Source: Candidatus Omnitrophota bacterium (GTDB taxonomy: Bacteria > Omnitrophota > Gorgyraeia > Gygaellales > Profunditerraquicolaceae). Taken from it: 19,923 nt of DNA. Position 1 is the stretch's first letter; each line of letters begins with the position of its first letter. This document shows, in pieces, positions 11,592 through 19,923 of this stretch. Below the pieces are notes generated by a model that saw only the letters and a program-made list of their open reading frames with translations, searched no databases and was not told the DNA's origin. Location of the stretch: contig JAHISH010000039.1 in the NCBI GenBank assembly GCA_018818365.1, forward strand, positions 1 through 19,923, in the 5' to 3' direction. A program made the translations under genes and the position numbers.

Positions 11592-13075
<1,484 letters not shown>

Positions 13076-13092
<17 letters not shown>

Positions 13093-14350
13093 AGGCGGCA
13101 GGGTTATTGATCCGGCAAATAGCCTGGATGGTGTTTTAGATATATTGGTTGATAGCGGCGTGGTGGCAAAGGTAGCGAAAAATATCCGGCCGAATGGGTT
13201 CCAGGTAATCGATGCCGCGGACCAAATAGTCATCCCAGGGCTGGTGGATATGCACGTACATCTGCGCGAGCCGGGCAGAGAAGATAAGGAAACGATCACA
13301 AGCGGCACCATGGCTGCGTTAAAAGGAGGGGTTACCAGCATGGCGGCAATGCCGAATACTTGTCCGTGCATTGATTCCCCGGAGCAGGTTGTGCTGTTGC
13401 GAAAGATCATTGCCCAGAGCGCCTCTGCCAATGTGTATATTACTGCCGCAATCACTAAAGGAAGAAGCGGCCTTGCGTTAACCGATATCGAAGGACTCAA
13501 AGAGCAAGGAGTGATTGCGCTTTCTGATGATGGTTCCTCGGTAGATTCGGAAGAGCTGATGCGTGCAGCCCTGCAGAGAAGTAAGAAAGCCGGGATTGTT
13601 GTTATCTGTCATTGTGAAGATAAAACTCTTTCGCGCAACGGCAGTGTGAATCTAGGAATCGTCTCTACTCGCCTGGGATTGAAGGGGATCTCTAAAGAAT
13701 CAGAGTATCTGCGCGTTGCGCGCGACATCGACTTGGCACAGGAAATAGATGCGCCGATTCATATCACCCATGTAAGCTGTCAAGAATCGGTGACGCGTAT
13801 TGCCGAAGCCAAGAAAAAGGGGATTAAGGTCACCGCGGACACGGCTCCGCATTATTTTACGCTCAGCCAAGAAGCATTGCAGGGGTTTGATACCAACATG
13901 AAGATGAATCCTCCCTTGCGCACGAAATCCGATGTCGCAGCTATTCGGCAAGGGTTACGGGACGGCACTATCGATACAATCGCCTCCGATCATGCCCCGC
14001 ATACTGAGAATGAGAAAGAGATAGAGTTTGAGCGCGCCGAATTCGGCGTCATCGGCTTGGAAACGGAATTAGCGGTGGGGATTACTGAACTAGTGCATAC
14101 GGGAATATTAGGATGGCAGGAACTGGTGGCAAAGTTGACGTGCAATCCTGCGCGGATCTTAGGAATTGCCAAGGGGACTTTGTCGGTAGGCGCAGATGCG
14201 GATATAGCGGTGGTTTCTCCCGACAAGGAGTGGGTGGTGGAAAAACATGGTTTTCTTTCCCGGTCGAAAAACTCCTGTTTTTTAAATCGCACGCTAAAAG
14301 GGTACGTTGTCTGTACCATCTGCGGGGGAAAAATTGCGTATAGACATTGA
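13076..14350 (+). CDS. pyrC: dihydroorotase, class I
   Basis: 424 residues, the long class I form of the amidohydrolase superfamily; it cyclises carbamoyl aspartate to dihydroorotate. The metal ligands are in place: H60 and H62 in DMHVHLREPG, D151/D152 in ALSDDGSS, H179 in ICHCED, H232 in ITHVSC and D305 in ASDHAPH. DTAPHYFTL and MNPPLRTKSD are also standard. The start ATG 13076 lies within the end of pyrB, so translation is coupled. The product of carAB and pyrB feeds directly into it. Nothing is missing. A 59-base gap separates it from the EndoQ-type gene, with no terminator seen. Confidence 0.96.
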
Positions 14351-14409
14351 AATTGAGTATCACCAGAGAGGTAGGTCGCCCGTCCCCAAGCTTCTGAGGA
14401 TTTTTGAGA

Positions 14410-15648
14410 ATGGAATTTATAGCTGATTTTCATATTCATTCTAAATACTCCCGCGCGACCAGCAAGGAGATGGATATTGCGCATCTGGCAGAATGGGCAA
14501 AGCTCAAAGGGATTACTCTTATGGGAACAGGGGATTTTACTCATCACCTTTGGCTTGAGGAACTTAAATCTCACTTGGAAGATGTCGGGAACGGGCTTTT
14601 TAAATATCAGGATGTTTATTTTGTTTTAACCACAGAGATAAGCAGTATCTATTCGAAGAACAATCGCGGGTACCGCATACACAATATGATCTTTAGCCCT
14701 TCATTCAAGACTACGGATAAGATAAACGAAACCTTAAGCCGGATGGGAAATCTTGCCAGTGACGGACGTCCTATCTTGGGGCTCGATGCCGCAGAGTTGG
14801 CAAGGATTGTTTTTGATATCGATGAAAATTGTATGGTGGTCCCGGGACATATCTGGACCCCCTGGTTCAGTCTGTTTGGATCGATGTCCGGCTTTGACCG
14901 CATCGAAGATTGTTTTGAAAAACAGGCTTCCAAGATATTCGCTCTTGAAACGGGATTGTCAAGCGATCCGGCAATGAATTGGCGTCTAAGCGCGCTGGAC
15001 AGATTTAGCCTTATCTCTAACAGCGACTCTCATTCTCCGTCAAAGATAGGACGCGAGGCCAATGTCTTTAACTGCGACCTTGATTATAAGACAATCCGCG
15101 AAGTCCTACGTACCAAAGATAAGAAGAGGTTTCTCTATACAATAGAGTTTTTCCCTGAAGAGGGGAAATATCATTTTGACGGACACCGTCTTTGCGGAGT
15201 GCGCCAGTCGCCAAAAGAAACCAAAGCCAATAATGGGCGTTGTCCGCAATGCGGAAAATCGGTGACTGTGGGGGTCGTTAATCGAGTAGAGGCGCTTGCG
15301 GACCGGCCAGAAGGATTCATCTTGCCTCACGCGATTCCTTTTCGCAATCTTATCCCGTTTGAGGAGATCGTTGCGGAAGCCAAGGGGCTGGGGAAGACCT
15401 CTCTTGCGGTAGAGAGAGAGTACCGGAGTTTGGTTACAAAATTCCAAACAGAGTTTAATATATTGCTGCGTGCTTCAGAGAGCGAACTTCGCCAAGGGCT
15501 GCCTCCCCGGATTGCCGAGGGGGTACTGCGCGTGCGGCAAGGAAAAGTAACTATCAAGGCCGGTTATGACGGGGAGTACGGAATTATCTCTATATTCGGA
15601 GACGAAGATAAACCGGAAAAGACAGAACAGCAGCTTAGCTTATTTTAG
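14410..15648 (+). CDS. PHP-domain endonuclease Q-type protein with a C-terminal clamp motif
   Basis: 412 residues of the PHP family that includes EndoQ, which nicks DNA 5' of deaminated bases such as uracil and hypoxanthine. The PHP metal motifs are ADFHIHSKYS (5-14), GTGDFTHH, TTEISSIY, IHNMIF, PGHIWTPWFSLFGS and LISNSDSHSPSKIG. A zinc cluster CPQCGK (about 280) with an upstream CG leads into VGVVNRVEALADRPEG, which is typical of EndoQ. The last five residues are QLSLF (15631-15645), a match to the bacterial sliding-clamp motif QLxLF. ATG 14410 is preferred; TTG 14404 is two codons earlier. It follows pyrC in the same orientation, without functional connection that I can see. Confidence 0.88.
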   Translation: MEFIADFHIHSKYSRATSKEMDIAHLAEWAKLKGITLMGTGDFTHHLWLEELKSHLEDVGNGLFKYQDVYFVLTTEISSIYSKNNRGYRIHNMIFSPSFKTTDKINETLSRMGNLASDGRPILGLDAAELARIVFDIDENCMVVPGHIWTPWFSLFGSMSGFDRIEDCFEKQASKIFALETGLSSDPAMNWRLSALDRFSLISNSDSHSPSKIGREANVFNCDLDYKTIREVLRTKDKKRFLYTIEFFPEEGKYHFDGHRLCGVRQSPKETKANNGRCPQCGKSVTVGVVNRVEALADRPEGFILPHAIPFRNLIPFEEIVAEAKGLGKTSLAVEREYRSLVTKFQTEFNILLRASESELRQGLPPRIAEGVLRVRQGKVTIKAGYDGEYGIISIFGDEDKPEKTEQQLSLF

Positions 15649-15656
15649 AGGTGCCT

Positions 15657-16136
15657 ATGAAGAGTGTAATAATTTATTATTCTTTCAGCGGGAATACTCG
15701 TAAGGTTGCCGAGGTTTTAGAGGCACACCTTAGAACCAAAGGGGAGGTTGAATTAATAGGGCTTAAGCCAACACAAGAGACAAAGGCTTTTTTAGCCCAG
15801 TGTGCACAAGCTCTCCGGCGCGTACGCACAGAGCTGGAGCCCGTGAAATTTGATTTAAGTGAATATAAGGGGATCTTTCTGGGGACTCCTGTGTGGGCTT
15901 TCGCACCTGTTCCGGCGCTAAATACCTTTTTAGATAAATGCGAAGGGGTGAATGGTAAGCACGTAACATTGTTTACTACCTATGGAAGCGGGACAGGAAA
16001 TCAAAAGTGCCTTGATTCCATGCAGAATGCGTTGACGAAGAAAGGCGTCTCTAATTTTAGTCGGTTTTCTATTCAGCAATTTAAGGTAAAAGACAACGAT
16101 TTTGTTCTTTCTGAAATACGCAAAGCCGGGATATAG
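15657..16136 (+). CDS. flavodoxin-like protein
   Basis: 159 residues with one flavodoxin fold. The FMN phosphate loop is YYSFSGNTRKVAE (about 7-19), in the Ser/Thr-x-Thr/Ser-Gly-Asn-Thr pattern. GIFLGTPVWAFAPVPALNTF and VTLFTTYGSGTGN form the two flavin-ring loops. It is likely an electron carrier or an NAD(P)H-dependent flavin reductase partner in the cytoplasm. ATG 15657 is chosen since KSVIIYYSFSGNT begins the first strand. AGGTG lies only three bases upstream, so GTG 15651 is an alternative two codons earlier. It is eight bases after the EndoQ-type stop and may share its message. Confidence 0.85.
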   Translation: MKSVIIYYSFSGNTRKVAEVLEAHLRTKGEVELIGLKPTQETKAFLAQCAQALRRVRTELEPVKFDLSEYKGIFLGTPVWAFAPVPALNTFLDKCEGVNGKHVTLFTTYGSGTGNQKCLDSMQNALTKKGVSNFSRFSIQQFKVKDNDFVLSEIRKAGI

Positions 16137-16293: not shown

Positions 16294-16752
16294 ATGCGTA
16301 AAAAGATAGTGGGAGTAATAGGCGGGCATACGTGTACGGATGAGGTGGAGCAGATTGCCCATGAATTAGGCAAAAAGCTGGCCAAAGTGGTTGGATTGCT
16401 CGCTTGCGGTGGACTTAGTGGTACGATGTTGGCGATTTGCCGCGGATTTAAGGATGGAGGAGGCGTAACTATAGGAATATTACCGAGTTACAACAAAGAT
16501 GATGCGAATGAGTATGTTGATATTCCCCTTCCCACCGGAATGGGATTGGCAAGGAATGTCTTAGTGGTAAAAAGCGCGGATGTGGTGGTGGCGCTTCCTG
16601 GCGAAGCAGGAACCTTATCTGAAATTGCGTATTGCCTGCAATTCGGAATCCCTGTAATCAGCTTGAGATCATGGGATATCCCGGGCGTTATAAAAGTTGA
16701 TACTGTGGAGCAGGCCGCGGATAGAGTCAAAGAATTTCTAAAGGAGAATTAA
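16294..16752 (+). CDS. SLOG/LOG-like nucleotide-binding protein (TIGR00725 type)
   Basis: 152 residues with a Rossmann-like fold. VGVIGGHTCTDE opens the first strand, LLACGGLSGTMLAICRGFKDGGG (about 35-57) matches the nucleotide loop of the LOG/lysine-decarboxylase-like family, and ADVVVALPGEAGTLSEIAYCLQFGIPVI (about 95-122) aligns with the PGGxGTxxE motif. The second glycine is replaced by Glu in PGEAGT, so phosphoribohydrolase activity like that of LOG cannot be assumed; family members of this short type include molybdenum-cofactor carrier-like proteins. It lies three bases before carA, AAGGAG near its end serving carA, so the two are co-expressed. Confidence 0.8.
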   Translation: MRKKIVGVIGGHTCTDEVEQIAHELGKKLAKVVGLLACGGLSGTMLAICRGFKDGGGVTIGILPSYNKDDANEYVDIPLPTGMGLARNVLVVKSADVVVALPGEAGTLSEIAYCLQFGIPVISLRSWDIPGVIKVDTVEQAADRVKEFLKEN

Positions 16753-16755
16753 TCT

Positions 16756-17829
16756 ATGAAGGCACTCTTAATGTTGGAGGATGGCAAAACTTTTATAGGA
16801 TTGGGTATCGGGGTAAAGGAAGAAAAGATAGGGGAGGTAATCTTGAATACTGCCGTGGTGGGGTATCAGGAGATGATGACTGACCCGGCCAATGCCGGAA
16901 AAATATTAATCCTAACCTATCCCCTGATCGGCAATTACGGCACTGCGCCAAAGTTTAATGAGTCCTCAAGGGCGTGGCTGGCGGGTTTGGTGATTAAAGA
17001 AAAAAGCAATATGTATTCAAACTGGCAGGCCACACAAAGCTTTGATGACTTCGTCAAAGATAATAACCTTTTGGCGATCAGTAAAGTGGATACCCGCACC
17101 TTGGCCGTGCATATCCGGCAAAAAGGGCAGATGTATGGCATTATATCTACGCAATGTTTTGAGCCAAAAGAACTCAAGCTTAAGATCGAACGGTTCCGTG
17201 CGCAGGCTCCAGAAAGCATCCTTGCCCAGATCTCTGTAAAGAAACCAACGCGGGCAGGAAGGGTTAAGGGGAAACATAAGATAGCGGTATTAGATTTAGG
17301 GATTACGCAGAGTATTATTACGCAACTCGAAAGATTGAATTGTGCGCTGACCCTCTTGCCCTATAATACTCCTACGTCCGAGATCATACGGCTTAAGCCG
17401 GGCGGATTGGTTATATCCGGCGGTCCGGAAGAAGATACCCAGTTACGCATAGCCCAAGAGAATATCAAGCCTTTGATCGGGAAAATCCCTCTTTTAGGAA
17501 TTGCCACGGGGCATCAGGTCTTAGCCAGGTCGTTAGGGGGCAGGACTACGAAGTTAAAAGTAGGCCATCACGGAGTCAATTACCCCATTCATTATCCCAC
17601 TTCTTTTAAGGGGGAAGTTACGGTACAGAATCATTCCTATTCGGTCGATGAGGATTCATTCAGTAAGATAAAAGAGGTAAAGATCACCGCGTATAATCTT
17701 AATGACCGAACGGTAGAAGCAATTGAAAGCAAAAAGCTTAAATTGCTCGGGGTACAGTATAATCCGGCAAGCCCCGGATTTGAAGAGGTCCATAGCGTTC
17801 TTACGCACTTTATCAAAATGGTATCTTAA
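16756..17829 (+). CDS. carA: carbamoyl phosphate synthetase small subunit with a degenerate glutaminase site
   Basis: 357 residues, near the usual 360-380. The N-terminal CarA domain is normal in outline (GEVILNTAVVGYQEMMTDPANAG, PLIGNYG, VDTRTLAVHIR). The class I glutaminase domain from about residue 190 keeps the fold signature, with GIATGHQ, LKVGHHGVNYP and a VQYNPASPG end. The catalytic residues are gone: the GICLGHQ cysteine is Ala250, the histidine of QxHPEASPG is Asn336, and the glutamate is lost by a one-residue contraction. SNGPGDP reads SGGPEED (221-227), and QNHG reads QNHS (291-294). The frame is intact with no stop. I infer that it cannot hydrolyse glutamine and may serve only as a structural partner of CarB, which would then use free ammonia. 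Confidence 0.92.
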   Translation: MKALLMLEDGKTFIGLGIGVKEEKIGEVILNTAVVGYQEMMTDPANAGKILILTYPLIGNYGTAPKFNESSRAWLAGLVIKEKSNMYSNWQATQSFDDFVKDNNLLAISKVDTRTLAVHIRQKGQMYGIISTQCFEPKELKLKIERFRAQAPESILAQISVKKPTRAGRVKGKHKIAVLDLGITQSIITQLERLNCALTLLPYNTPTSEIIRLKPGGLVISGGPEEDTQLRIAQENIKPLIGKIPLLGIATGHQVLARSLGGRTTKLKVGHHGVNYPIHYPTSFKGEVTVQNHSYSVDEDSFSKIKEVKITAYNLNDRTVEAIESKKLKLLGVQYNPASPGFEEVHSVLTHFIKMVS

Positions 17830-17847: not shown

Positions 17848-19923
17848 ATGCCTCGACGTCGTGATATCAAAAAAGTCTTAATGATAGGCTCGGGCCCGAT
17901 TGTTATCGGCCAGGCCTGCGAGTTCGACTACTCAGGTTCCCAGGCTTGTAAAGCGCTGCGAGAAGAAGGATATTTTACTATCCTGGTCAATTCCAATCCT
18001 GCGACGATCATGACCGATCCGGGCATGGCCGATGTAACCTATATCGAGCCGCTTTCGGTAGATATCGTCACGCAGATAATCCGGAAGGAGAAGCCCGATG
18101 CAATTCTTCCGACGCTCGGCGGACAAACCGGCTTAAACCTGGCCTTCTTTTTGATGAAGAAGGGGATCTTAAAGAAATACGGGGTGGAGTCGATTGGCGC
18201 ATCCGTGACCGCGATCTCTTGCGCGGAAGACCGGGAGCTCTTCAAGAAGGCGATGCAGGAGATAGGTGTTGGCGTCCCCAAAAGTGGCATTGCCACTACT
18301 CTCGAGGAAGGCATGCAAATCGGTTTAAGTATCGGCTTTCCCCTTATCTTGAGGCCGGCATACTGTCTGGGAGGAAGCGGCAGCGCCACCGTCTTTAATA
18401 AGGAGGAACTGGAGAGATTTTTGGATAAAGGCTTAGAGACAAGCCCGGTACACCAGGTCTTAGTGGAACAATCCGTCCTGGGATGGAAAGAGATTGAGTT
18501 TGAAGTAATGCGCGATTGTGCGGATAATGTGATCATGATTACTTCCATGGAGAACGTTGATCCGATGGGCGTCCATACCGGCGATAGCATTGTGGTTGCG
18601 CCTTCCCAGACGTTGACCGCCGAAGAATACACCAATTTTGTCAACCTTTCTAAAAGGATCATCCGCCGCGTGGGGATCTCCGGGGGCGGGGCAAATATCC
18701 AATTTGCCCAGAATCCCTATAATGGGCACATCGTTATCATCGAAGTCAACCCACGCCTGAGCCGCTCCTCAGCGCTCGCCTCGAAGGCGACGGGTTTTCC
18801 CATTGCCCGCGTCGCCACGAAGCTTGCGGTAGGTTTGACGCTGCCTGAGGTAATGAACCAGATTACCGGAAAGACTACATCCTTCTTTGAACCGACGGTG
18901 GATTATTGTGTATTTAAGATCTGCCGGTTTGCGTTCGAGAAATTTTCCCGCACCGACCGCGTCCTTAACACCTCGATGAAGGCGGTCGGGGAAGCAATGT
19001 CGATAGGAAGGAATTTTAAAGAGGCGCTCCAAAAGGGGATCCGCTCGACGGAAACATCTCGTTTTGGGTTCGGCGCAGACGGTAAAGATAAGATCACCGA
19101 TGAGATGCTTAAAGATCCCGAGAATAGATTACTCAAGCAAATCCGCGACAAAATCCGTATCCCCCACGACGAAAGGTTATTTTATATTCGCTATGCCCTG
19201 AAAGCGGGGATTTCACCCGAAGAGATTCATCAACTTTCGCATATCGACCGCTGGTTTATTGATAATATGAAGCAGCTTGTGGATATGGAGGCAAAGATCA
19301 AAACCTACAAAAATTCCAAAGAGCAAGATGAGCTCAAGCTCCCTATGGAATTATTCCGGCAGGCCAAGGAAGACGGGTTTTCCGATAGGCAGTTGGCTTA
19401 TTTATTGCAGGTGAAGGAGGAGAAAGTGCGAGAGGCGCGAAAAAAGAATAATATCAAGCCGACATATAAATTAGTCGATACCTGCGCGGGAGAACATCAT
19501 GCCAAGCAGCCGTATTTTTACTCTACCTATGAGACGCAGGAAGAGGCCAGGCCGAGCAAGAATAAGAAAGTGATCATCTTAGGCGGCGGTCCGAATCGTA
19601 TCGGGCAGGGGATCGAATTCGATTATTGCTGTTGCCATGCGGCGTACGCCTTAAAAGAGGAAGGGATCGACAGCATCATGGTTAACTGTAATCCGGAGAC
19701 GGTCTCTACTGATTATGACACTTCCGATAGGCTCTATTTTGAGCCTCTGACCTTTGAAGATATCATGAATATCATCGAAGTTGAGAAACCCATGGGGGTA
19801 ATCGTACAGTTCGGAGGACAGACTCCGCTTAATTTGGCGGTTTCTTTACGCAAGGCCGGGGTTCCTTTGCTGGGCACCAGTGCCGAGAGTATCGATATCG
19901 CCGAAGACCGCAAACGGTTTAAA
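17848..19923 (+). CDS. carB: carbamoyl phosphate synthetase large subunit, 3' end cut by the window
   Basis: The first 692 codons of a protein normally about 1070 long; the frame is open to the window edge. AAAGGAG (17834-17840) lies seven bases before ATG 17848. The first synthetase half shows [17 protein letters not shown] (14-30), [47 protein letters not shown] and [22 protein letters not shown]. It builds carboxyphosphate and carbamate. A linking helical domain follows (about 400-560), and the second half begins at residue 572 with [20 protein letters not shown]. The ATP-grasp motifs seen look functional, in contrast to the CarA next door. It is 18 bases after carA and in one operon with it. 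Confidence 0.97.

Follow-up and report, generated by a model that had tools for sequence, protein, structure and literature searches.

According to the excerpted text of PMC4655335, vertebrate carbamoyl phosphate synthetase 1 (CPS1) lost its catalytic cysteine, and variants of the Escherichia coli carbamoyl phosphate synthetase (CPS) whose tunnel is blocked or perforated retain activity on ammonia supplied from outside. In addition, a title cited in PMC6245113 names the in vivo synthesis of carbamyl phosphate from NH3 by E. coli CarB alone. Here, we describe a bacterial CPS locus whose small subunit CarA has no glutaminase triad. In the open-access literature, outside which most subscription journals lie, we found no report of a bacterial ammonia-type CPS with a dead CarA. 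The novelty lies in the form, with CarA as a separate bacterial subunit, and in its spread and gene setting; the chemistry would be that of a known enzyme.

Results

Loss of the glutaminase triad in a pyr operon CarA

The window, i.e., the whole stretch of 19,923 nucleotides analyzed here, is contig C171 of a Candidatus Omnitrophota genome in 295 contigs that is 81% complete. It contains an operon in the order pyrR-like, pyrB, pyrC, TIGR00375-like, flavodoxin-like, SLOG protein, carA and carB, the carA being termed carAx in the following:

11598..12140, plus strand: PyrR-like phosphoribosyltransferase, its name inferred from domain and position
12133..13092, plus strand: pyrB, aspartate carbamoyltransferase, which uses carbamoyl phosphate; named from domains and operon
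13076..14350, plus strand: pyrC, dihydroorotase, from profile matches
14404..15648, plus strand: TIGR00375-like protein, a usual pyr operon member (187 bits, under the TIGR00375 cut-off)
15651..16136, plus strand: flavodoxin-like protein, an optional operon member, from profile matches and relatives' loci
16294..16752, plus strand: SLOG LDcluster4/TIGR00725 protein, usually just upstream of carAx
16756..17829, plus strand: carAx, CPS small subunit without the glutaminase triad (C269 to A250, H353 to N336, E355 deleted)
17503..17505, plus strand: GCC, Ala250, at the nucleophile position
17761..17763, plus strand: AAT, Asn336, at the catalytic histidine position, with the Glu355 deletion directly after it
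17848..19923, plus strand: carB, CPS large subunit, ending at the window edge and apparently resuming on contig C272; listed N-half ATP-site residues retained apart from E208Q; R265V, P360C

The carAx frame (16756-17829) begins with ATG, encodes 357 aa without interruption and ends with TAA; AAAGGAG lies 5' of its start. At full length its product scores 339.3 bits with TIGR01368 (cut-off 307.35) and 146.6 bits with PF00988 (cut-off 27). Alignment with E. coli CarA pairs C269 with A250, H353 with N336, G243 with E225, S47 with A45 and G313 with S294, and E355 is deleted. The original prediction of a CarA without any catalytic triad residue was thus confirmed on the codons (GCC for Ala250, AAT for Asn336, Glu355 deleted) and in the alignment, which also bore out the proposed motif changes from SNGPGDP to SGGPEED and from QNHG to QNHS. 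By the Cys-His-Glu triad, CarAx does not class as a catalytic class I glutamine amidotransferase. G241, H272, Q273, N311 and H312, which we take to belong to the glutaminase pocket, are retained, from which it follows that part of the old pocket remains. Some database records name proteins of the CarAx type "glutamine-hydrolyzing".

carAx adjoins carB with a gap of 18 bases. As the two are separate frames, the pair is not the single fused chain of CPS I proper. The CarB had been called intact-looking, which stands for the 692 residues inside the window; the remainder apparently resumes on C272, another contig of this genome, a short gap further on.

CarAx-type proteins form a clade under purifying selection

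A first search of 58 genomes, i.e., 57 relatives and the window's own, found a CarAx-type CarA in 20 relatives. In a phylum-wide profile search of 384 genomes, 38 matches reached at least 440 bits, the window's own included, and the next match was a canonical CarA at 393 bits; the CarA of G023 appeared in fragments, and its two pieces were excluded from the CarA tree. With the pocket columns removed, 33 dead Omnitrophota CarAs formed one clade with an SH-aLRT of 100, in a tree whose outgroup does not form one side of a branch. None of these 33 has H353 or E355 (G030 being uninformative there), and C269 occurs only in G016. Six further CarAs read after the tree have the same triad losses. Among the best 120 listed of 2122 database matches, minus the window's own (n = 119, some of them identical to proteins in the CarA tree), His or Glu was present in 0/119 and Cys in 3/119. 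As a control, the best 80 CarA loci from a named genome collection had Cys in 79/80, His in 78/80 and Glu in 78/80; the Cys-less locus, L107, is itself an Omnitrophota contig, and L116 is gapped at His and Glu.

By mean identity, CarAx evolves faster than canonical CarA, with 55% versus 69% in the glutaminase domain and 61% versus 69% in the N-domain. Dozens of columns are invariant among the CarAx rows, including the glutamate at the G243 position (33/33). G241, Q273, N311 and H312 are largely kept across the dead CarAs. For carAx, the closest pair (dS 0.5) gave a dN/dS of 0.19, and two pairs with dS close to 2 gave 0.07 and 0.09; the other five listed pairs were saturated. Unsaturated pairs of canonical carA gave 0.04-0.08; carAx is therefore constrained, somewhat less than canonical CarA. 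No internal stop was found in the 38 carAx-scoring matches of the phylum search. The triad loss is clade-wide and under purifying selection and is not decay. The expectation of a clean frame without ordinary decay hence held, with 357 aa open, a 33-member clade and dN/dS of 0.07-0.19.

Partner CarBs keep catalytic residues and differ at the presumed ammonia tunnel

Wherever letters exist in the 35 partner CarB rows, R129, R169, E215, H243, Q285, E299, N301 and R303 are all kept, as are R715, E761, Q829, E841, N843 and R845. E208 is the exception among the listed ATP-site residues, being Q in 32/34 partner CarBs. The carAx-carB pair hence combines a lost glutaminase triad with retained synthetase residues from this list. 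H754 of E. coli CarB is replaced by K in carAx partners and likewise in most canonical kin. Compared with 35 canonical N-halves, carAx partners have replacements at 34 of 248 conserved N-half positions, versus 0 of 193 in the C-half.

CarB R265 is R in 35/35 canonical N-halves, V in all 33 carAx partners with letters and Q in 11/11 CarA-less CarBs. In the dead CarAs with letters, P360 is kept in 0/38 and H361 in 1/38, while canonical rows have P in 37/37 and H in 34/37. We take CarB R265 together with CarA P360 and H361 to form the wall of the ammonia tunnel; Kim and Raushel (2004) reportedly found that tunnel changes at P360, H361 and R265 cost glutamine use, not ammonia use. H361 is the weakest of the three because it varies in other phyla as well (H in 50/80 control loci).

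For the CarB half trees, rows of less than 300 residues were excluded. Full-length CarBs without an adjoining CarA form a separate, long-branched clade (L073, L074, L080, L082 and others, from G022, G010, G021 and G040), and the N-half tree carries a long-branch warning at the junction of carAx partners and CarA-less CarBs. In G022 and G040, the CarA-less CarB is followed by a GMP synthase frame without a glutaminase domain.

Many relatives encode a second CarA, catalytic by its triad where read

A second CarA is present in 25 of the 42 carAx relatives, and none was shown in 17. In the first set of 20 relatives, 10 encode a further CarA, and all 10 of these retain Cys, His and Glu. Altogether 11 second CarAs were read, all catalytic by the triad and 10 of them encoded with a half-length CarB. 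In the first set, the second CarA adjoins this half-CarB (about 550 residues, N-half only) in 9/10; in G001, the two lie at contig ends on different contigs, and G146 is a further adjoining case. The half-CarB comprises the N-half ATP-grasp and the oligomerisation domain and has no C-half (Pfam on one, L061). In G006, it is split into two overlapping frames (L053:4736-6381), a frameshift or error. pyrG adjoins the second CarA, gltBD is nearby in several genomes, and a single run in G146 joins pyrG, carA, half-carB, DUF1846, carAx and carB. A DUF1846 protein often neighbours CPS genes of both kinds (L052:6536-8131 and other loci).

Among the 15 two-CarA genomes of the wider survey, 9 have a second match listed at canonical score, and in G174, G244, G397, G229, G293 and G333 the second CarA is known from the count of two alone. 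The dead residues were read in 19 of the 22 wider-survey genomes; G174, G332 and G333 were assigned by score alone.

Full-strength glutamate synthase is present in 24/25 two-CarA versus 1/17 one-CarA genomes. In the first set, it occurs in 10/10 with a second CarA versus 0/10 without. A gltB prediction set beforehand for 22 genomes was right in 20 (14/15 two-CarA versus 1/7 one-CarA) and wrong in G159 and G098; gltB of G098 is in fragments, and its second CarA may therefore be absent through assembly. Fisher p-values for second CarA against glutamate synthase (1e-5, 6e-4 and 2e-9) overstate independence because the genomes share ancestry. An ammonium transporter, searched in the first set only, is found in 10/10 genomes with a second CarA versus 0/10 without. 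The enrichment of glutamate dehydrogenase (GDH) that we had predicted for one-CarA genomes failed, with 12/17 versus 20/25 in two-CarA genomes.

The window's genome carries gltB, gltD, amt, glutamine synthetase and GDH. No second CarA was found in its 81%-complete assembly. With this completeness, and since gltB and amt are near-constant companions of the second CarA in relatives, the genome probably has one that is unassembled. A second catalytic carA, which had been named as the finding that would count against an ammonia-using enzyme, is thus present in many relatives and absent from the window's assembly. It had also been proposed that pyrimidine and arginine synthesis are tied to free ammonium. 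This does not stand as stated: with a second CarA in 25/42 relatives, catalytic in 11/11 read, neither pathway would depend on free ammonium alone in such genomes. We also considered the half-CarB as a complete minimal CPS on its own; this idea lost ground with separate C-half genes in the pyr operons of carAx-free relatives, although homodimers are possible.

Genomes with carAx alone and their gene neighbourhoods

Eight of the 17 carAx-only genomes are at least 90% complete, six of them without caveat: G059 (96%), G222, G025, G314, G018 and G046. Apart from a CarB fragment in G016, no CPS other than the dead pair was found in the 10 first-set relatives with carAx alone. argF (ornithine carbamoyltransferase) and pyrB were both matched in 10/10 carAx-only genomes searched, of the 17. 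A glutamine synthetase domain was matched in 14/17, which makes glutamine synthesis probable. At 98%, G030 is the most complete genome with carAx alone; its carAx-carB junction is damaged, from deletion or misassembly: its CarAx (L042:9237-10217) is about 37 residues short at the end and runs into a CarB without its first residues.

Outside the window's family, carAx lies one or two genes from GDH in G059, G063 and G038. In G059, the run reads DUF1846, hisF, a glutaminase-free GMP synthase frame (316 aa), GDH, purF, carAx, carB, purL, nagB, trpE-like (named from its sequence) and trpG. In G063, part of a GMP synthase at the contig end precedes GDH, purF, carAx and carB, and G038 has GDH, DUF1846, a PurF-like protein with Ser replacing the N-terminal Cys, carAx and carB. 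These settings suit an ammonia-using enzyme. PurF of G059 and G063 keeps its Cys, and the gene set is therefore not wholly glutaminase-free. The run uniting hisF, glutaminase-free GMP synthase, GDH, purF, carAx, carB, purL and nagB in a carAx-only genome lies at L231:791-16710. PurF-like proteins with the catalytic Cys changed to Ser (MSG.FGV) occur in 3 of 17 rows (L048:3026-4426, L080:2694-4235, L082:6614-8077), upstream of carAx or of a CarA-less CarB.

Judged on GMP synthase frames alone, the glutaminase-free form is the only kind in 6/17 one-CarA versus 0/25 two-CarA genomes, with G063 and G232 cut by contig ends and G219, G332 and G397 (of the 25) unassignable at contig ends. All six genomes lie outside the window's family. 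Two GMP synthase frames occur in the window's genome, a short C-part (336 aa; G000:C247:2688-2930) and a partial one at a contig end (C260).

Genomes with a CarB C-half alone or without CarA

Some carAx-free relatives have the C-half alone in the corresponding position of the pyr operon. In 10 of them the contig also carries pyrB or pyrC; in two further cases only the SLOG gene lies alongside. For G021, G041, G019 and G034, the C-half-only assignment depends on contig-end frames. Several C-half-only relatives encode an active CarA and an N-half elsewhere in the genome. C-half-only rows are dispersed among the carAx rows of the C-half tree. With all 17 rows included, the starred branches require 4 or more changes; when the four doubtful rows are omitted, the minimum is 8. 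It would be economical to assume that the ancestor possessed both front ends and that one or the other was lost repeatedly.

In the assemblies of G024 (96% complete), G019, G020 and G028, CarA and the CarB N-half were not found; only the C-half was, that of G019 at a contig end. The respective loci, L192 (G024), L195 (G028), L190 (G020) and L204 (G019), possibly encode a one-half CPS. G042 (94% complete) has a pyr operon with full carB, and CarA was not found anywhere in its assembly.

Discussion

We consider it likely, from comparison of sequences, that carAx-carB encodes an ammonia-dependent CPS in which CarAx is kept as a scaffold, and the best reading is convergence with animal CPS1. Ammonia use with a structural CarA, as originally proposed, fits best because the triad loss is clade-wide and under purifying selection and the listed CarB catalytic residues are kept, and because residues of the presumed tunnel wall are replaced, 17/42 relatives show no other CarA and argF is present in 10/10 genomes searched. 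The pyr operon of G042, with carB and no CarA found, and the GDH neighbourhoods of G059, G063 and G038 also speak for it. The second CarA in 25/42 relatives speaks against the proposal in its full breadth. Further points against ammonia use are the damaged G030 junction, the glutamine synthetase domain in 14/17 carAx-only genomes, the faster evolution of CarAx, the loss of both carAx and the CarB N-half in some relatives, the lack of GDH enrichment in one-CarA genomes, the largely kept pocket residues and the variation of H361 in other phyla. CarAx, without a working glutaminase, would act as docking and folding partner of CarB, as its conservation suggests. The CarB N-half would phosphorylate bicarbonate and join it to free NH3, and the C-half would phosphorylate the carbamate; glutamine would not be a direct donor for this pair. 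We thus infer both the substrate and the scaffold role from observed residue losses, conservation, retained CarB residues, gene content and phylogeny.

In relatives with a fuller nitrogen-scavenging gene set, an active CarA with half-CarB, together with pyrG and often gltBD, may form a second front end. As this has no C-half gene of its own, it probably borrows the pyr operon C-half. The C-half tree suggests that a single CarB C-half works either with an ammonia front end in cis or with a glutamine front end in trans. We may thus speculate, tentatively, that there is one CPS whose C-half is shared by two front ends that can replace each other. CarAx with the CarB N-half would work in cis and CarA with half-CarB in trans, and lineages could possibly drop either one according to their nitrogen physiology. 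It is equally tentative that a few lineages moved the ammonia version beside GDH and other enzymes capable of using free ammonia.

Alternatively, the CPS might be composite, CarAx-CarB being a scaffold, with CarA and half-CarB providing carbamate from glutamine in trans and the full CarB contributing mainly its C-half. The half-CarB without a C-half agrees with this, as do the lack of a separate C-half gene among the listed matches in the 10 dual genomes searched and the presence of both front ends in the one G146 run. Likewise, C-half-only pyr operon relatives with CarA and N-half elsewhere must combine halves, unless each half is a working homodimer. However, 17/42 carAx relatives show no second CarA, half-CarB was absent in the 10 of these searched apart from the G016 fragment, and the N-half of the carAx partners retains all listed catalytic residues but E208, which is unexpected for a mere scaffold. 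We hence regard this arrangement as unlikely.

Somewhat less likely still, and compatible with ammonia use by CarAx-CarB, CarAx could be a sensor, its remodelled pocket taking up a new ligand and thereby gating CarB. Its new residues are near-invariant (G243 to E in 33/33, P245 to D in 30/33); yet no ligand is indicated, and such changes could simply seal the pocket. It appears improbable that CarAx is a dispensable relic in the process of loss, held by linkage or mild effects on stability. The scattered C-half-only rows (at least 4 starred changes, or 8 without the doubtful rows), the damaged G030 junction and carB without carA in relatives such as G042 would agree with a relic, but dN/dS well below 1, the lack of internal stops in 38 matches and the dozens of invariant columns argue against it. 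A sequencing error or recent pseudogene, conceivable in a metagenome-assembled genome, can be practically dismissed with the same losses in 33 loci of different genomes and in 119 database proteins; for carAx in general, the clade, these proteins and dN/dS rule out error or decay.

If ammonia use by CarAx-CarB is true, the pair would correspond in bacteria to animal CPS1, with both subunits changed where we take the ammonia path to run, and would offer a natural comparison for the uptake of external ammonia by CPS. It would also connect gene content across an uncultured phylum with the choice between glutamine and ammonia as nitrogen supply.

In domain make-up, gene order and listed CarB catalytic residues, CarAx-CarB resembles E. 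coli CarA-CarB, from which it differs by the missing triad and the replaced CarB R265 and CarA P360 and H361. Relatives with C-half-only pyr operons are reminiscent of the split CPS of Aquifex aeolicus with separate N-half, C-half and CarA genes (excerpt of PMC6022934), although in Omnitrophota the parts are distributed over two gene clusters and a fused CarB is also present in carAx relatives. The 41-kDa CPS of Methanobrevibacter smithii, a single small dimer in the same excerpt (PMC6022934), might fit the C-half-only case of G024; unlike it, the Omnitrophota C-half, as seen in the single case L198, bears an MGS domain. Like vertebrate CPS1, as far as the excerpt of PMC4655335 describes it, CarAx-CarB keeps a glutaminase-like domain without Cys and the synthetase sites, with a probably altered ammonia tunnel. 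Unlike in CPS1, CarAx is a separate bacterial subunit, encoded in a pyr operon in the window's family, and has also lost His and Glu.
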